A stretch of 64,000 nucleotides of DNA, from the NCBI RefSeq assembly GCF_004402375.1, contig NZ_SOGJ01000007.1, positions 58,232 through 122,231 of the forward strand, in the 5' to 3' direction. The notes beneath the pieces are model-generated. The model searched no databases. It was not told the origin of the DNA and saw nothing but the letters and a program-made list of their open reading frames with translations. This DNA is from Cryobacterium breve. Lineage in GTDB: Bacteria > Actinomycetota > Actinomycetes > Actinomycetales > Microbacteriaceae. Below are positions 7,415 through 48,322 of the stretch, in pieces (position 1 is the first letter of the stretch; each line of letters starts with the position of its first letter). The position numbers and the translations under genes were made by a program.

Positions 7415-7987
7415 ATGCCCACAATCGTCCATGAGTTTGCCTGGCCGGATCGGGTCGTCGTCGGCACCGTCGGTCTGCCCGGGTCACGCACGTTCTACCT
7501 GCAGGTGCGCACGGGAGCTCAGATCGTGAGCATCGCCCTGGAGAAACAACAGTCCGCTCTGCTCGCCGAGAAGATCGACGAGATGCTCGACCAGCTGATG
7601 AGCCACGAGGGCAACCCGTTCAGCATCCCGACCAACACGCCCGTCGAGCTGGTCGACAACGACCCGCTGGACCAGCCGGTCGTAGAGGAATTCCGCACCG
7701 GCGGGATGAGCCTCGGCTGGGACCCCTCGACCGTGCAGGTCGTGATCGAGGCGTATCCACTTGTTGAGGTCGACCCAGGCATTGAGGACGCACTCGACGA
7801 GGATCTGCTCGATGCGATCATGGTGGAGCCGGAGGAGATGCTCCTGGTCCGGATGCCCGTCGGCACCGCCCGGGCCTTCGCGAAGCGCACCCGCGAGATA
7901 GTAGGGGCCGGCCGCCCCCTCTGCCCGTTCTGCGGCGACCCCATCGACGTCGAGGGGCACGTCTGCACCCTTCCCGGCAGCCTCTGA
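7415..7987 (+). CDS. DUF3090 family protein
   Basis: A 190-residue protein of the actinobacterial DUF3090 family. It opens with a beta-rich block (VVVGTVGLPGSRTFYLQV) and ends with a CPFCGDPI...C cluster near residues 168-184, which looks like a small zinc ribbon. No enzymatic motif is visible. It is the middle gene of the phosphatase-DUF3090-SCO1664 trio, and its TGA stop shares one base with the next ATG. Confidence 0.9.
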   Translation: MPTIVHEFAWPDRVVVGTVGLPGSRTFYLQVRTGAQIVSIALEKQQSALLAEKIDEMLDQLMSHEGNPFSIPTNTPVELVDNDPLDQPVVEEFRTGGMSLGWDPSTVQVVIEAYPLVEVDPGIEDALDEDLLDAIMVEPEEMLLVRMPVGTARAFAKRTREIVGAGRPLCPFCGDPIDVEGHVCTLPGSL

Positions 7988-8784
7988 TGCAGCCCGATGC
8001 GCCCCTCGGCGACGGGGACCTCGGCGACCTTGACCTCGACGGCGACCTTGAACTGACGGGACGCATCACCACGGCATCGAACGCGACCTTCCTGGGCAGC
8101 ATCGGCGACGCCACGGTGGTCTACAAGCCCATCGCCGGCGAGCACCCGCTCTGGGATTTTCCCGATGGTGACCTCGCCAGCCGGGAGGCCGCGGCCTACC
8201 TGGTCTCGGAGGCCTTCGGCTGGAATGTCGTGCCGCTCACCTGGCTGAGGGGCGGTCCGATGGGGCCGGGGATGGTGCAGCTCTGGCAGGATTCGGACCC
8301 CGAACAGGATGCCGTGGACCTGGTCCCGTGGGAGGCCGCGCCGATGGAGGGCTGGCGCCGGGTCTTCGACGGCCGGGACGAGCACAATCGCGCCGTCACG
8401 CTCATCCACGAGGACTCGGTCGCGCTTCGCCGGATGGCCGTGTTCGACATCGTGGTGAACAACGCCGATCGCAAGGGCGACCACATCCTCGCGATGCCGG
8501 ATGGACACCGGCACGGCGTCGACCACGGGCTCACCTTCCACGCCGAGCACAAGCTGCGCACCGTGCTCTGGGGCTGGCTGGGGGAGGAGCTCACCGCTGA
8601 CGAGCTCGACGGGATCGACCGGGTCAGCGCGCAGTTGGCGGGTGAGCTCGGCGCCGCTCTGGGCGCGTTGCTCACCGAGGTCGAAATAGCAGCACTGGCC
8701 ACGCGCTGCGACCGACTCCGCGCTGACGGGCGGTTCCCGGCCCCGCGCGGCGACATGCCCGCCGTGCCCTGGCCGCTGTTCTGA
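7987..8784 (+). CDS. SCO1664-type protein, phosphatidylinositol-kinase-like fold
   Basis: A 265-residue protein of the SCO1664 family, distantly related to PI3/4 kinases and HipA-like kinases. The catalytic-loop-like block VVNNADRKGDH (about residues 156-166) and the GVDHGLTFH block (about 177-185) stand where the family keeps its ATP and metal ligands. The ATG overlaps the DUF3090 stop. Substrate unknown. It converges with nrdG, leaving only 3 bases between the stops. Confidence 0.85.
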   Translation: MQPDAPLGDGDLGDLDLDGDLELTGRITTASNATFLGSIGDATVVYKPIAGEHPLWDFPDGDLASREAAAYLVSEAFGWNVVPLTWLRGGPMGPGMVQLWQDSDPEQDAVDLVPWEAAPMEGWRRVFDGRDEHNRAVTLIHEDSVALRRMAVFDIVVNNADRKGDHILAMPDGHRHGVDHGLTFHAEHKLRTVLWGWLGEELTADELDGIDRVSAQLAGELGAALGALLTEVEIAALATRCDRLRADGRFPAPRGDMPAVPWPLF

Positions 8785-12819: not shown

Positions 12820-12903
12820 CACGCCAACTGCGGAGATTTTCGCAACACGCCGCGCATGGGGCCGAGGCGCCCGGCGTGTTCCGAAAATCTCCGTACTAAC
12901 GTG
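12820..12903. repeat. Inverted-repeat element, subfamily B, copy 1
   Basis: The left arm at 12821-12852 (core gcggagattttcgcaacacg) pairs imperfectly with the right arm at 12872-12902 (core cgtgttccgaaaatctccg). It shares the cggagatttt core with subfamily A but continues into a different arm. It lies between the pseudouridine synthase gene and the DUF222/HNH gene. Confidence 0.8.
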
Positions 12904-41300: not shown

Positions 41301-41442
41301 ACTACAACGGTAATCCATCCGGGGGTGCCCCCCGTTCGTGCGGGGCGATTCGTGGCCTGTCACGGCCCGAATCCAGGTCGGATTTCGGGTGCGGCCCCGC
41401 TCGTCGTCCGCCCGGGTCTGCACTTCGCGGCAGGATATGAGC

Positions 41443-43131
41443 ATGTCGACTACTGAGCAGCAGCCCTGGGTGAAGAACTACCAACCGGGTGTCCCGGCCG
41501 AAATCGATCTGCCCACGGAGTCCCTCGTCGCGATGCTGGAGCGCTCGGTGGCCGAGGCCGGCGACCACCCGGCTCTGGAGTTCTTCGGGCGCCGCACGAG
41601 CTACGCCGAGCTCGGCGACCAGGTAGACCGGGCGGCGGAGGGTTTGCGTCAATTGGGCGTTCGCGCGGGGGACCGGGTGGCCCTCATCCTGCCGAACTGC
41701 CCCCAGCACGTCGTCGCCTTCTACGCCGTGCTGCGCCTGGGCGGTGTGGTTGTGGAGCACAACCCGCTCTACACCTCCCGCGAACTCCGCCACCAATTCG
41801 AAGACCACCAGGCCCGCATCGTGATCGCCTGGGACAAGTCCGTGGCCTCCGTGCGCGCCTTCCCCGAGGACGTCGAGATCGACCACATCGTTTCCGTCAA
41901 CCTGCTGGCCGCGTTCCCGGCCATCAAGCGCCTTGCCCTGCACCTGCCGGTGAAGAAACTGCGCGAGTCCCGCGACGCACTCTCGGGGTCCGCGCCGGGC
42001 ACCATCTCCTGGAAAGACGTGCTCAGCCACGGCGCGATCGACCCCGAGCATCCGCGCCCGGCGGTTGACGACCTCGCGGCCCTGCAGTACACCTCGGGCA
42101 CGACGGGGCAGCCCAAGGGTGCCATGCTCACCCACTTCAACCTCTACTCCAACGCCCTGCAAGGCGAGGCGTGGATGCACGGGGCCGAGTACCGCAAGGA
42201 GATCTTCTACGCGATCCTGCCCATGTTCCACGCGTTCGGAATGACCCTCTACCTGACCTACGGCATCCGCAAACAGGCCCTGCTCGTTCTGTTCCCCAAA
42301 TTCGACCCCAACCTGATTCTCGACGCCATGAAGAAGTCGCCCGCCACGGTCTACTGCGCGGTGCCGCCGATCTACGAGCGCACGGCCGTGGTCGCAAAGG
42401 AGCGCGGAATCTCGCTGCGCTCCTGCAAGTACTGCATCTCGGGCGCCATGAACCTGCCGGACCACGTCGTGGAACTGTGGGAATCGGTCTCGGGAGGGCT
42501 CCTAGTGGAGGGCTACGGCATGACGGAGTCATCGCCGGTGGCACTCGGCAACCCGTTCCACCCCACTCGCCGGCCCGGCACGGTGGGTGTGCCGTTCCCC
42601 TCCACCCAGATGAAGGTCGTCGATCTGGACGACCCCACCACCCTCGTGGCGCTGGGCGAGCCCGGCGAACTGCTACTGAAGGGGCCGCAGGTCTTCCAGG
42701 GCTATTGGAACAACCCCGAGGAGACCGCGAAGACCCTCCTACCCGGCGGCTGGCTGCGCACCGGCGACATCGTGACCGTCGACGCCGACGGCTTCACCAC
42801 GATCGTGGACCGGGCCAAGGAACTCGTGATCAGCGGCGGCTTCAACGTCTCTCCCTCGGAGGTGGAGGCGGTGCTGCGACTGCACGCGGATGTCGTCGAC
42901 GCGGCCGTCTTCGGCAAGACTCTCGAACGGGGTGGGGAGATGGTCGTCGCAGCGGTCGAGCTCAAGCCAGGGGCGGCTCTTGATGAGGAAGCGCTGAGAT
43001 TCCACTGCCGCGACCAGCTCGCGGCATACAAGATCCCGCGTCGAATCGTTAAAGTCGAGGAGATGCCCCGCTCAATGCTGGGCAAAATTCTGCGCAAACA
43101 GGTGCGGGAGCAGGTTCTGCCGCTGCTCTGA
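41443..43131 (+). CDS. Long-chain fatty-acid-CoA ligase
   Basis: A 562-residue adenylate-forming enzyme. YTSGTTGQPKGAML is the AMP-binding P-loop, GYGMTESSP and GWLRTGDI are the adenylation core motifs, and the C-terminal LGKILRK holds the catalytic Lys. It activates fatty acids to CoA thioesters for beta-oxidation or lipid synthesis. ATG 41443 has an AGG 8-9 bases upstream; ATG 41437 is closer to it. Divergent from the helicase with a 142-base gap. Confidence 0.92.
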   Translation: MSTTEQQPWVKNYQPGVPAEIDLPTESLVAMLERSVAEAGDHPALEFFGRRTSYAELGDQVDRAAEGLRQLGVRAGDRVALILPNCPQHVVAFYAVLRLGGVVVEHNPLYTSRELRHQFEDHQARIVIAWDKSVASVRAFPEDVEIDHIVSVNLLAAFPAIKRLALHLPVKKLRESRDALSGSAPGTISWKDVLSHGAIDPEHPRPAVDDLAALQYTSGTTGQPKGAMLTHFNLYSNALQGEAWMHGAEYRKEIFYAILPMFHAFGMTLYLTYGIRKQALLVLFPKFDPNLILDAMKKSPATVYCAVPPIYERTAVVAKERGISLRSCKYCISGAMNLPDHVVELWESVSGGLLVEGYGMTESSPVALGNPFHPTRRPGTVGVPFPSTQMKVVDLDDPTTLVALGEPGELLLKGPQVFQGYWNNPEETAKTLLPGGWLRTGDIVTVDADGFTTIVDRAKELVISGGFNVSPSEVEAVLRLHADVVDAAVFGKTLERGGEMVVAAVELKPGAALDEEALRFHCRDQLAAYKIPRRIVKVEEMPRSMLGKILRKQVREQVLPLL

Positions 43132-43188
43132 GCGGGTTAGGGGCGCGGGTTCGAGACGTCGGGTTATCGGGTTAGGGGCGCGGCTCGG
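43132..43188. repeat. 16-bp direct repeat at the end of alkD
   Basis: cgggttaggggcgcgg occurs at 43133-43148 and again at 43168-43183. The second copy contains the stop codon of the shortened AlkD gene. Confidence 0.75.
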
Positions 43189-43669
43189 ATCGCCCCGCCG
43201 CAAGCAAGGCTGCCCGGCGCAACCACCGGTCGCTGTCGCCGGCCCAGCGATCGAGCACGCTCGATGCCCGGGCGCGGTCCGGCGCAGCCAAGCGCTCCAG
43301 CAGCGGACCCACCACGTCGACGGCGATCGGGTCGACCAGTTCCCGTAGCCCCGCACTGCGCAGGAAACCCTCAATCCGGGTCAGGTCGGAGTTGTCCAGC
43401 CGCCACACGTTCGACTGCAGCAGCACCACCGCCGCGAGTCGGCGCTCGAACACCGGCACCGCCCAGAGCTCCGTGCTCAGCGCGGTCACGTCGTCGTGCG
43501 TCAGACCGGGGTATCGGCGGGCAGCGTCTCGGATCGTGCCGCGCACCGCGCCGACCGAGGCGCCGTAGAACCGCAGATCACTGCCCAGCCGCTCTTTTTC
43601 CGCTGCGGCCCGGTAATCGTCCCCTTCGGCCTGCAGGGTCGCGTCCACAAAGCTGCCGGCGTCACTCAC
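43172..43669 (-). CDS. AlkD-like DNA alkylation repair protein, short C-terminus
   Basis: A 165-residue HEAT-like repeat protein of the AlkD family, which excises alkylated bases. ELWAVPVFERRLAAVVLL near 65-85 and WRLDNSD near 92 are family blocks, and WAGDSDRWLRRAALLA near 140 is a late repeat that normally contacts DNA. Typical members have about 220-235 residues, so 60-70 residues are missing. The frame ends inside a 16-bp direct repeat, suggesting a recombination that cut the gene short. Activity is doubtful. Confidence 0.75.
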   Translation of the reverse strand: MSDAGSFVDATLQAEGDDYRAAAEKERLGSDLRFYGASVGAVRGTIRDAARRYPGLTHDDVTALSTELWAVPVFERRLAAVVLLQSNVWRLDNSDLTRIEGFLRSAGLRELVDPIAVDVVGPLLERLAAPDRARASSVLDRWAGDSDRWLRRAALLAAGRSEPRP

Positions 43670-43725
43670 CTGTCCATTCTCTCGGTTCCGGAGGTCGACG
43701 ACATCTGGGCCGTTACGCTGAAAAC

Positions 43726-44514
43726 ATGATGACGGCGCCCGGCTACACCGTGACGGATGCGCAATTCACCCGACTGCGCGCCATGAACCTCATCGCCGGA
43801 ATCATCCTTTTCGCACAGGCCGTGCTGATCTCGGCAGCCGCCCTGGCCGAGAAAACCCCCGTACTGTTGCCGGTCACGGCCAGGTTCCCCGGCGGACCGG
43901 TGGGTTCCGCGGTCATTCCGCAGACCGCGCACCTGGCCGACGTCAACCTCGGAGTGGCCGTCGTCATCCTGCTCACCCTTTCCGCGGTCCTGCGGTTCGC
44001 GCAGCTCCTGCCGGCGGTCGCCGGCCGGTACCGGAGCGGCCTGGACGCGGCACGCAACACGACCCGCTGGGTCGAGTATTCGCAAGTCTCCGCAATCACG
44101 GTGTTCCTGATCGCCCAGCTCAACGGCGTCACGGAAGTCGGCACGCTCGTGGCGCTCTATGCGATCACAGCGAGTGCGACGCTCTTCCTGGCCCTTCAGG
44201 AGAGCGAGCCGCGCGGGGCCGGGTCGCTCCGGCCGTTCGTCTTCGGGACCATGGTCGGCATCGTGCCGTGGGGCATCATCGCCTTCTATCAAATTGGTGC
44301 CGGAACTCTCGGCGACGTCCCCGAACTCTTCGTACGCACCGTCACGCTGTCGCTGCTCGCTGTGGCCACCCTGGTCTGGACCAACGCCTGGCTCGGCCGG
44401 AAGGCCCGTCGGGGTTGGGCCCATCCGCATCGGGTGGAGATGGCCCAGATCATCCTGGTCACCTTCGGAACCACGCTTCTGGCCGGACAGGTGCTGACGG
44501 GGGTGCTGCTCTAG
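43726..44514 (+). CDS. Heliorhodopsin homologue lacking the retinal lysine
   Basis: A 262-residue protein with seven hydrophobic helices. It aligns end to end with heliorhodopsin 48C12: NLIAG...Q in helix 1, LPVTARF in the first loop, RWVEYS with the counter-ion Glu at 117, LQE, FVFG...GIVPW and a final LLAGQVLTG. The helix 7 Lys that binds retinal (K241 in 48C12) is Thr249 here, and the two internal His residues (H23, H80) are Leu28 and Arg90. It therefore cannot form the usual Schiff base. Role unknown; possibly a light-independent sensor or transport-related protein. It is divergent from the short alkD, with a 56-base gap and no clear ribosome-binding site. Confidence 0.78.
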   Translation: MMTAPGYTVTDAQFTRLRAMNLIAGIILFAQAVLISAAALAEKTPVLLPVTARFPGGPVGSAVIPQTAHLADVNLGVAVVILLTLSAVLRFAQLLPAVAGRYRSGLDAARNTTRWVEYSQVSAITVFLIAQLNGVTEVGTLVALYAITASATLFLALQESEPRGAGSLRPFVFGTMVGIVPWGIIAFYQIGAGTLGDVPELFVRTVTLSLLAVATLVWTNAWLGRKARRGWAHPHRVEMAQIILVTFGTTLLAGQVLTGVLL

Positions 44515-44524
44515 TACTCTCGCC

Positions 44525-44607
44525 TGCCACTGCCACTGCCACTGCCACTGCCACTGCCATTGCCATTGCCATTGCCACTGTTGCAAGTCGCCGGTCGCCG
44601 GTCGCCG
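44525..44607. repeat. Tandem arrays (tgccac)n and (gtcgccg)3
   Basis: Nine 6-base units, five tgccac, three tgccat and a final tgccac, lie at 44525-44578, starting 10 bases after the heliorhodopsin-like stop. Three copies of gtcgccg follow at 44587-44607. Confidence 0.9.
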
Positions 44608-44893: not shown

Positions 44894-44973
44894 TCACGCT
44901 ACGGAGGAGATTTTCGCGAAACGCCGGAGTTCGTGGCCGCCTGGGCGGCGTGTTGCGAAAATCTCCTCACGAA
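44894..44973. repeat. Inverted-repeat element, subfamily B, copy 3
   Basis: The left arm has ggaggagattttcgcgaaac (44903-44922). The right arm has cggcgtgttgcgaaaatctc (44947-44966) and ends tcctcacga at 44973. The arms pair imperfectly and the aggagattttcgc core is exact. Confidence 0.8.
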
Positions 44974-45077: not shown

Positions 45078-45923
45078 ATGAAGATCGTCGTCACAGGTGG
45101 AAGCGGAAAGCTCGGCCGGACCGTCGTGAAGTACCTAGTGGCCGAGGGCCACGAGGTGTTGAACCTCGACCGTGACGGTGCCCGCAGCCACGATCTGGTG
45201 GTCGTGGACCTCACGGACTACGGCCAGGTCATCGACGCGATCCTCGGTGTCGATGACCGGCACTCGGGCTTCGACGCAATCGTTCACCTGGGCGCGATCC
45301 CGGCTCCCGGCCTGGTTCCCGACGTGGCCACTTTCCACAACAACATCCTCTCCACCTACAACGTGTTCCAGGCGGCCCGGCGTGCGGGCATCACGAAACT
45401 GGTCTACGCCTCCAGTGAGACCGTGCTCGGCCTGCCGTTCGACATCGACCCGCCCTACCTTCCCGTGGACGAGGAGTACCCGGCCCGTCCCGAAAGTACC
45501 TACTCGCTGGTGAAGCACCTCGAGGAGCAGATGGCGATCCAACTCACCCGGTGGGATCCCGAACTCAGCATCACGGCCCTGCGCTTCTCCAACGTCAAGG
45601 ACCCGGAGGACTACGCGGCCTTCCCCGCCTTCAACGCCGACGCCACCCTGCGCAAGTGGAACCTGTGGGGCTACATCGACGGCCGCGACGGCGCCCAGGC
45701 CGTGCTGCGTGCCCTGGAGAATGCGAAGCCGGGCTTCGAGGCATTCATCATCGCCGCCGCCGATACGGTGATGAGTCGGCCCAACGCCGCTTTGGCGGCC
45801 GAGGTCTTCCCCGGCGTCGAACTACGGCCGGTCGGCGAGAACGACACGCTGCTCTCCATCGACAAGGCCCGACGGATGCTGGGCTACGCCCCCGAGCACA
45901 GCTGGCGCGACCACGTGGCGTAG
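45078..45923 (+). CDS. NAD-dependent epimerase/dehydratase (extended SDR)
   Basis: A 281-residue extended short-chain dehydrogenase. GGSGKLG near residues 7-13 is the NAD loop, and STYSLVKHLEE holds the YxxxK catalytic pair. Substrate is probably a sugar nucleotide or uronate (uronate dehydrogenases have a similar layout). ATG 45078 is preceded by AGAGGA at 45065-45070. The gene stands alone downstream of an inverted-repeat element. Confidence 0.88.
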   Translation: MKIVVTGGSGKLGRTVVKYLVAEGHEVLNLDRDGARSHDLVVVDLTDYGQVIDAILGVDDRHSGFDAIVHLGAIPAPGLVPDVATFHNNILSTYNVFQAARRAGITKLVYASSETVLGLPFDIDPPYLPVDEEYPARPESTYSLVKHLEEQMAIQLTRWDPELSITALRFSNVKDPEDYAAFPAFNADATLRKWNLWGYIDGRDGAQAVLRALENAKPGFEAFIIAAADTVMSRPNAALAAEVFPGVELRPVGENDTLLSIDKARRMLGYAPEHSWRDHVA

Positions 45924-46825: not shown

Positions 46826-48322
46826 CTAGGAGGTCGCTGCCACGAACGCCGTGGAGTACGACCACTGCGGGCTGCTCACCCCGGAGCACATGTAGGCGGG
46901 AATGCCGCCCGTGCAGGGCTGGTCCCTGGTCATTTCCCACCAGCCGACGTAGTTCAGCGCGTTCGCCTTGGCGAAGGCGCTGACCTTATTCGTGTCGGCG
47001 AGGGTGAAAATCTCACCTGTGTCGTTCAAACCGATCATCGGCGTGATGCCGATCATGGACAGGCGCTGGGCGTCGGTCAGGCCAGCGTACGCAGGGAACG
47101 CGGCCAGCTGCTTCGCTGTGGAGTTCGCCGCGCTGATGGCGGCCGTGCCCATGTCGACCGTGCCGTCGCCGTAGTCCATGGCCATGATGTTGACGGCGGA
47201 GAGTTTCACTCCTCCGGCGGCGAATTCCTTGAGTGTGCGTTGACCGCTTGCGACGAGGCCGTAGGGCATCACCGGGAGGGTCAGGGATACCTGCAAGGGC
47301 CGGCCTGCTGCGGACTGCTGCTTCTGGAGAGCGACGATCGCGACCACGCGGCGTGCGTTGGCGGAAGGGTCGGAGACGTCGGAACCCTCGATGTCGAAGT
47401 CGATCCGGTCCACGTTGAACCGGTTGACCACCTTTGTGTACGCGGCGAGCAGAGCGGCCGGGTCGGTGCAGACCCGGGCGAGCTCGTTGTTCACGGCCCC
47501 GCCGAACGACACCACGAACTGCCCGCCGCCGGTCTGGAACTTGGAAATCGCTCCCACGAAGTCCTGGGTTCCGCCCACGGTGTAGTCGGTGTAGCCGGCC
47601 CAGGTCGGGCTGCAGTTGCTGGAGCGGTCGGCGACGATGAACGCCCCGGTGACGGCCTTGACCCCGGTCGCCGCAGCGAATGCGGAGAGGTCAGCGCTCG
47701 GCCAGAGGCCCATGTCCACGTAGGGGGCGACGAGAAGGCTGCCCGCCGGAGTTGGGGTGGCCGTCGGAACCGGGGTCGGAGTCGGGGTGGCCGTCGGAGT
47801 CGGAGTCGGAGTCGGAGTCGGGGTCGGAGTCGGGGTGGCCGTCGGAACCGGAGTCGGAACTGTCGAGCCGGAGCCGTTCACGGAGCACGGGATCGACGCG
47901 GCACCGGCCGGAAGGCCGATCACCGTGCAGGCGGTGGGGTACAGCGGAGCGGTTCCCACCTTGTACGACGTGAGGCCGAATGACGCGGTCGAGCCGGGCG
48001 CGAGCTTCGATGCCCAGGTCGGCGCCTTCACGGCGAATCCGCCGGTCGCGGTCTGAAGCGTCCCGTTCCACAGGGTGTTCACCTTGTTGCCGTAGGTGAA
48101 GGAGATCTGCCACGGCTGCAGCGTGGTCGTCGACGCGTTGTGAACCCCTGCCTCCGACTGGAACCCGGTCGTCCACACGTTCGTGTTCTTCCACGTCACC
48201 TCCACGCCGGACGTGGCCGCCGCCGCCGGCAGCCCGGTGGCGCCGAGACCGAGTATGAGCAGAACGGAAGAGCTGATCGCGATCGCCAGTGGTCGCAGCC
48301 GCCGGGAAGTGGAATCTTTCAC
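46826..48322 (-). CDS. GH18 chitinase with N-terminal CBM2
   Basis: A 498-residue secreted enzyme from GTG 48322 (GAGGA about 7 bases upstream). A signal peptide covers about residues 1-36. A carbohydrate-binding module family 2 domain covers about 37-145, with conserved Trp residues. A Thr-Pro repeat linker runs from about 155 to 195. The GH18 barrel follows, with DRIDFDIE giving the D-x-x-D-x-D-x-E motif and catalytic Glu312. It degrades chitin outside the cell. The linker repeat is a simple tandem array in the DNA (about 47757-47855). Confidence 0.93.
   Translation of the reverse strand: MKDSTSRRLRPLAIAISSSVLLILGLGATGLPAAAATSGVEVTWKNTNVWTTGFQSEAGVHNASTTTLQPWQISFTYGNKVNTLWNGTLQTATGGFAVKAPTWASKLAPGSTASFGLTSYKVGTAPLYPTACTVIGLPAGAASIPCSVNGSGSTVPTPVPTATPTPTPTPTPTPTPTATPTPTPVPTATPTPAGSLLVAPYVDMGLWPSADLSAFAAATGVKAVTGAFIVADRSSNCSPTWAGYTDYTVGGTQDFVGAISKFQTGGGQFVVSFGGAVNNELARVCTDPAALLAAYTKVVNRFNVDRIDFDIEGSDVSDPSANARRVVAIVALQKQQSAAGRPLQVSLTLPVMPYGLVASGQRTLKEFAAGGVKLSAVNIMAMDYGDGTVDMGTAAISAANSTAKQLAAFPAYAGLTDAQRLSMIGITPMIGLNDTGEIFTLADTNKVSAFAKANALNYVGWWEMTRDQPCTGGIPAYMCSGVSSPQWSYSTAFVAATS

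Follow-up and report, generated by a model that had tools for sequence, protein, structure and literature searches.

A stretch of 64,000 nucleotides of Cryobacterium breve DNA (the window) carries at 43726..44514 on the forward strand a gene for a heliorhodopsin homologue of 262 residues without the retinal-binding Lys (HeR-noK). Judged from its sequence, the protein belongs to the heliorhodopsin family without being a retinal protein of the usual, covalently binding kind, and phylogenetic trees place it in a single Lys-less clade. The reading that we favor, with a probability of roughly 0.55, is that of a membrane regulator or sensor with a heliorhodopsin fold and a heliorhodopsin-like cytoplasmic face, which would act independently of light and retinal. 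The function of heliorhodopsins is largely open, with a few reported cases in which they regulate partner proteins, and a natural clade in which the fold and part of the cytoplasmic charge network persist while the anchor is gone uncouples the output function from the sensing of light. Some carriers of such a gene live without any other detected retinal protein, and the named strains Cryobacterium cheniae TMT2-48-2 and Cryobacterium cryoconiti TMT1-51 make the question directly testable.

The reading frame is complete, with start and stop as given by an earlier note on this DNA, which had proposed a heliorhodopsin homologue devoid of the retinal Lys. The homology is confirmed by a match to the full length of PF18761 (138.1 bits against a cut-off of 26.7, E 3.9e-40, profile positions 1-242 of 242), a profile that matches none of 14 control genomes, and by the closest relatives in the PDB, which are entries of heliorhodopsin 48C12 (9ljj, 6su3, and 6uh3; E 2-3e-28). 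Among the motifs that the note had listed as common to both proteins, RWVEYS, GIVPW and the terminal A-Q-V/I-G block are indeed shared, while LPVTARF is so only in part, as 48C12 reads LPMTGTY. NF038020 ("heliorhodopsin HeR"), an NCBIfam equivalog, gives 140.8 bits (cut-off 100), hence this model would name such Lys-less proteins photoreceptors.

The last 48 residues of the protein align with 48C12 without gaps, so that Thr249 (codon ACC, 44470..44472) sits on Lys241 and the TM7 motif SxxxK reads VxxxT. The His23/His80 pair is also absent, with Leu28 (43807..43809) and Arg90 (43993..43995) at these places, while the counter-ion Glu107 is kept as Glu117 (44074..44076; all codons on the forward strand); the earlier assignment of all four residues is borne out by the alignment. 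A sequencing or frame error hiding a Lys in helix 7, which the note had named as a possible objection, is ruled out because five assemblies agree on Thr, with codon ACC in each. Since the Lys is missing, retinal would not be held covalently at its usual place. A QM/MM study of 48C12 describes two hydrogen-bond chains, one (His80-His23-Gln26-Trp246) leading toward the outside and the other (Asn16-Tyr92-Glu230-Arg104-Glu149) toward the cytoplasm (PMC9726877). The cytoplasmic chain is complete in the window protein (Asn21, Tyr102, Glu238, Arg114, and Glu159), next to the retained Glu117, whereas only Gln26 (Gln31) is left of the outward chain, from which His23, His80 and Trp246 are gone. Ser237 and Phe206 have become Val245 and Ala214, and Pro172-Trp173 is kept as P181-W182.

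The predicted structure is that of a heliorhodopsin as well. An AlphaFold2 model built from the window protein and 19 homologues (mean pLDDT 84.2, pTM 0.81) shows seven long helices and an AB loop that contains two strands, and a Foldseek comparison with the PDB, of the kind that the earlier note had proposed, gave ten matches with E <= 0.001, all of them heliorhodopsins (query-normalised TM 0.84-0.89). The next match is a type-1 rhodopsin with E 2e-3, compared with 8e-14 for heliorhodopsin, which, together with the nesting of the clade among heliorhodopsins described below, speaks against descent from type-1 rhodopsins. The model of a much diverged member from Curtobacterium (pLDDT 80.9) likewise finds heliorhodopsins in all ten of its hits with E <= 0.001 (TM 0.71-0.81). 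Arg and Lys residues in the loops of the window protein number 0, 3, 1, and 3 on the N-terminal side and 2, 0, 0, and 0 on the other, a distribution that fits the inverted topology of heliorhodopsins, so that the N terminus likely faces the cytoplasm.

An intact Lys-less gene is present in five of the 57 Cryobacterium genomes searched. The four orthologues share 75-79% identity with the protein of the window and come from C. cryoconiti TMT1-51, C. cheniae TMT2-48-2, Cryobacterium sp. M96 and a Cryobacterium MAG. The question raised in the note, whether Thr is fixed at the Lys site in a clade, can be answered positively for all five Cryobacterium proteins, while the loss of Lys itself extends to a clade across the family. 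In the ten pairs of the five orthologues dN/dS is 0.25-0.41 (NG86). The corresponding range is 0.04-0.14 for the canonical, Lys-bearing heliorhodopsin that these five genomes also encode, and 0.18-0.29 for the alkD-like neighbor. By these ratios the Lys-less gene is under purifying selection in Cryobacterium, although looser than that on its Lys-bearing paralogue. The ATG of the window gene aligns with the ATG of the four orthologues and is preceded at a distance of 6 nt by TACGCT (43714..43719, forward strand), of which TA..CT is invariant in the five; we take this hexamer to be -10-like, and its spacing would presumably fit a leaderless transcript. The gene is nevertheless dispensable, as one Cryobacterium genome (G030) holds a decayed remnant with an internal deletion (L148, 6370-6786) and another (G029, L085) an empty site, at which the alkD and epimerase genes are ~95 bases apart. 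Together with a copy from Salinibacterium xinjiangense that contains an in-frame stop (L157, 5992-6630), and with a dN/dS above that of the canonical paralogue, this remnant could indicate a decaying copy without function; such a view is highly improbable and already largely refuted by the dN/dS values of all ten pairs, the open frame in all five genomes, the conserved start and -10-like site, and the residues conserved in common by 40 diverged sequences of the clade. A C. breve assembly (G007; L168, 5848-6797) holds a heliorhodopsin with a broken frame, in which Arg occupies the Lys site. This gene was left out of the counts; the assembly is 83% complete, and a sequencing fault is possible.

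Beyond the genus, 398 genomes of Microbacteriaceae were searched with a profile built from the five orthologues, with at most six candidates scored per genome. The profile matched 84 genomes at 99 places, of which 66 have the Lys, 32 are Lys-less and one (L283) is cut by a contig end, hence at least 32 of the 398 genomes carry a Lys-less homologue. Two of these carriers belong to Cryobacterium, and the remaining 30 are spread over 11 other genus groups, for example Agromyces, Frigoribacterium, Subtercola, Microcella, Curtobacterium, and Labedella. The Lys site holds Thr in 13 of 42 aligned Lys-less sequences and Ala, Val, Gly, Pro, Ser, Leu, or other residues in the rest. A relocation of the Lys within TM7 is ruled out, as a stretch of 26 alignment columns there is devoid of Lys in all 42.

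In a maximum likelihood tree of 85 sequences, built without the Lys column, a single branch (98/94) splits Lys-bearing from Lys-less proteins. In a second tree, to which 15 heliorhodopsins of other actinobacterial families were added and from which L116 (a long branch) and L169 (a copy of L122) were removed, the Lys-less proteins form one clade (100/94) nested in the Lys-bearing ones, and in the rooted tree their closest sister is a pair of Cryobacterium heliorhodopsins (L034/L035; 100/99) that, unlike the clade, keep both Lys and His. Many near-identical Lys-bearing sequences were left out of both trees, and both came with warnings of uneven letter composition and of long branches, including L121, which has Arg at the site and branches off at the base of the clade. 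A further warning on the first tree concerned long branches that meet. The 15 outgroup sequences do not fall on one side of a branch, with the Lys-bearing family members L032, L033, L135, and L137 among them, and the root is therefore not certain, but there are Lys-bearing lines on both sides of it. Repeated independent loss is not supported, as both trees require a single change, and the retinal Lys would most simply have been lost once, in an ancestor within Microbacteriaceae. In a sample of the phylum, 109 of 396 genomes match the profile, and among the 69 further places read there none was recognised as Lys-less; 65 have the Lys, L200, L201 and L204 are unreadable at the site, and L203 gave no usable row.

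Some Lys-bearing relatives have features of their own. A second kind of Lys-bearing heliorhodopsin adjoins a Blh gene (PF15461) in G003 (C59:34418-36131) and G007 (C1:2128804-2130518), an arrangement that is not found in G046; it is frame-broken in G007, while the intact G003 copy belongs to the sister pair of the Lys-less clade. In G021, two heliorhodopsins, one canonical and one diverged, lie ~5-6 kb apart on contig C36 (L037; 328-1128 and 6542-7330). In the diverged copy, which keeps the Lys, Asp-Phe replaces Glu-Tyr in TM3, and a type-1 rhodopsin follows at 7606-8283 of the contig.

The loss of the Lys is accompanied by further changes across the clade. At site 80 (48C12 numbering) His is found in 32 of 32 Lys-bearing sequences, none of which has Arg, while Arg occupies the site in 27 of 40 Lys-less ones. 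All 27 have an acid (Glu or Asp) at 107, and Arg80 occurs in none of the seven Lys-less sequences that have no acid there (Fisher p 9e-5, kinship ignored), although the pair is not universal, as Arg80 is missing from six of the 33 sequences in which site 107 is acidic. In the simplest reading of this covariation, Arg at 80 would supply the buried counter-ion with the positive charge formerly given by the protonated Schiff base, and in the window protein Arg90 would do so for Glu117. Several residues that each occur in fewer than 30% of Lys-bearing sequences are newly conserved in the clade, namely Asn133, Gly183, Ala186, Thr207 and Leu211 (40/40 each), Tyr145 (39/40) and Gln189 (37/40). The cytoplasmic network that is intact in the window protein has been partly lost in diverged members, with Arg104 kept in 25, Glu149 in 19 and Glu230 in 23 of 40 sequences and the site of Tyr92 gapped in 21, which counts against a mechanism that would be uniform throughout the clade.

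Two further readings draw on these conserved residues. More tentatively than the reading favored here, it may be proposed that a type-3 rhodopsin was turned once, in Microbacteriaceae, into light-independent receptors, in which the buried Arg-Glu pair would stand in for the Schiff base, the former retinal cavity (Asn133, Tyr145, Gln189, Thr207) would accommodate a different ligand and the inherited cytoplasmic network would relay the signal; if true, this would be a bacterial counterpart, in inverted topology, of the change of opsins into chemoreceptors. Alternatively, the polar residues Asn133, Thr207 and Gln189 and the small residues Gly183, Ala186 and Ala214 could line the path of a small-solute transporter or ion conductor, for which a viral heliorhodopsin described as a proton transporter offers a precedent (PMC9448325). 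Such a protein, or a purely structural membrane protein, would have no part in signaling. We regard this as unlikely, as no transporter gene recurs beside the Lys-less gene across lineages in the flanks compared.

The retinal apparatus of the carriers bears on whether the clade still has to do with light. The window genome contains a canonical Lys-bearing heliorhodopsin and a type-1 rhodopsin, and searches with family profiles found no Blh and no RPE65-type oxygenase in it. The search for retinal synthesis genes that the earlier note had suggested was thus informative in part, with blh not found, while the lycopene cyclase profile PF05834, with two matches of 36 residues only, is uninformative, since it also matches ten of 14 control genomes. 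Inside the genus, Blh is present in three of the five carriers and hence does not track the Lys-less gene. Among the 30 carriers outside Cryobacterium, 25 have a type-1 rhodopsin, 20 Blh, and nine a Lys-bearing heliorhodopsin. In five carriers (G333, G207, G163, G060, and G367), a search that covered PF01036, PF15461 and heliorhodopsin among retinal-related genes gave no match to a PF01036 rhodopsin, a PF15461 Blh or a Lys-bearing heliorhodopsin; four of these genomes are 98-100% complete, and G367 is 81% complete. Such carriers argue for a role independent of retinal; where a type-1 rhodopsin (25/30 and the window genome) or Blh (20/30) is present, the protein may still be linked to retinal.

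Two readings would keep the protein tied to retinal proteins or to their chromophore. The first is an atypical photoreceptor, with retinal or a carotenoid bound non-covalently, which would agree with the conservation of Pro172-Trp173 in 40 of 40 Lys-less sequences, with the other retinal proteins of the window genome, and with the report that Lys-less opsins worked weakly with amine-bearing retinal compounds (PMC4915679). It is nevertheless quite improbable, since the pocket itself has changed, with Phe206 retained in one of the 40 sequences and replaced by Ala in 27 (Ala214 in the window protein), Ser237 replaced by Val245 and both His lost; moreover, the window genome has neither of the two cleavage enzymes searched for, and the five carriers described above have no match to the searched retinal proteins and Blh. 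The second is an accessory subunit, which would form mixed dimers with a Lys-bearing heliorhodopsin or another rhodopsin and modulate its partner, as has been proposed for type-1 Rh-noK (PMC10308929). A canonical heliorhodopsin accompanies the Lys-less gene in each of the five Cryobacterium carriers, a coincidence with a chance of 0.04 if kinship is ignored and the canonical gene is taken to be present in 31 of 57 genomes, including one whose copy contains an in-frame stop. This reading too is improbable, as in the other genera no Lys-bearing heliorhodopsin was detected in 21 of 30 carriers and the five just mentioned also have no PF01036 match. An obligate heterodimer is not supported by these counts.

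By contrast, a regulator or sensor that dispenses with light and retinal would account for both the intact and the altered parts of the window protein. A seven-helix line of the heliorhodopsin fold would have lost its retinal Lys and have been kept for a function that needs neither. The combination of an intact cytoplasmic side (Asn21, Tyr102, Arg114, Glu117, Glu159, and Glu238) with a chromophore side and extracellular end that are largely gone (His23, His80, Ser237, Lys241, and Trp246) can be read as the keeping of a signaling or partner-binding face. The switch would be other than light, for instance a small molecule, pH or ions, or the membrane, or else the protein would be a constitutive regulator of a partner. 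Heliorhodopsins are reported to bind and regulate glutamine synthetase (PMC9529153), assist photolyase (PMC9769723) or modulate an ABC transporter (PMC11109279), and control of a partner in this manner, either constitutive or ligand-switched, would be the most economical idea. The earlier note had spoken of a new sensor, transport or regulatory role; the independence from retinal that this implied is backed by selection and by carriers without detected retinal apparatus, while the choice among the three roles is not decided by the results.

Several systems invite comparison. To heliorhodopsin itself (48C12, 6SU3) the window protein is similar in sequence family, predicted fold and likely inverted topology, and in Glu107, Arg104, Glu149, Glu230, Asn16, Tyr92 and Pro172-Trp173; it differs in the absence of Lys241, His23, His80, Ser237, Trp246 and Phe206, in Arg at site 80, in Asn133, Gln189 and Thr207, which are conserved in the clade, and in that retinal would not be covalently bound at the usual place. 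The opsin-related proteins of haloarchaea and fungi also have no Lys and have a small residue in place of an aromatic one in the pocket (Ala or Gly in the haloarchaeal proteins), keep residues on the signaling side and occur in species without other opsins and retinal synthesis genes; eight haloarchaea with a Lys-less opsin and no canonical one are reported to have neither crtY nor brp (Becker, 2016, PMC4915679). These proteins are of type 1 and often lie beside HAMP/MCP transducers, whereas the clade described here is of type 3 and has no transducer among ten neighbors scanned with Pfam. Rh-noK (Yamauchi, 2019) and the freshwater FArhodopsins are further microbial rhodopsins without the retinal Lys (PMC7714340, PMC10308929), yet they are of type 1, and their genes either form a tandem with that of a proteorhodopsin or adjoin a flotillin gene. 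About 600 of 5,558 microbial rhodopsins, heliorhodopsins included, were counted as Rh-noK in one survey (PMC7714340), and single sequences of the clade may be part of this number, while in another survey only sequences with a Lys in TM7 were retained, which would have removed the clade (PMC9601134). Lys-less type-1 opsins are thus known, while a Lys-less heliorhodopsin clade, a variant of a known family, is apparently new with respect to the open-access literature, where searches brought up no description recognisable from titles and the starts of abstracts.

The genomic company of the gene was compared across 13 lineages, with neighbor genes called by a rule based on GC content by codon position. 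The site of the gene is stable within several lineages, and within the flanks fetched no neighbor recurs in more than two of the 13, the gene itself aside. Nine gene families are each common to two lineages, among them an acyl-CoA ligase-like family shared by Cryobacterium and L140/L141; in L141 it directly follows the Lys-less gene, but the superfamily is large and no weight is placed on it. The ten neighbors scanned with Pfam are a glycosyltransferase, a glycosyl hydrolase, a DUF1684 protein, an ABC-2 permease, a glycerophosphotransferase, two GNAT acetyltransferases, a molybdopterin oxidoreductase, an epimerase and an SDR, and no transducer, kinase, photolyase or retinal gene is among these ten. 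The SDR-type neighbors of Cryobacterium, Labedella and Agromyces do not cluster together.

In the window, the Lys-less gene is preceded by a gene which we take from its sequence to be acyl-CoA ligase-like (41338..43131, forward strand; its orthologues align from residue 31) and by the divergent gene of an AlkD-like DNA alkylation repair family protein (43172..43669, reverse strand; 165 residues, matching PF08713 positions 2-143 of 213), and it is followed by an NAD-dependent epimerase (SDR) gene (45078..45923, forward strand). The order is the same in all five Cryobacterium loci, with some spacers enlarged and the distance to the epimerase gene varying. A joint role with AlkD in DNA repair, which would draw on this constant adjacency and on the reported help of a heliorhodopsin to photolyase (PMC9769723), is hardly credible, as the alkD-like gene is found in 48 of the 57 Cryobacterium genomes, of which no more than five hold an intact Lys-less gene, and does not recur next to the Lys-less gene in the flanks fetched from other lineages; such a partnership is not supported, and the gene is best taken as a neighbor rather than a partner. 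The earlier note had, moreover, described this alkD as shortened, a point that needs correction, as it matches its homologues in the genus over nearly the whole length in most of the places listed. Just past the stop codon of the Lys-less gene lies a tandem array of the hexamer CTGCCA (44524-44580, 9.5 copies), and an array of a GTCGGA-type hexamer is found at 47747-47858. An inverted repeat of 23 nt (91% complementary, arms 19 nt apart) with the core GGAGATTTTCGC occurs at 44904-44968 and at 12832-12892; with at most one mismatch this core has seven matches in the window against 0.28 expected, and it looks like a dispersed palindromic repeat.
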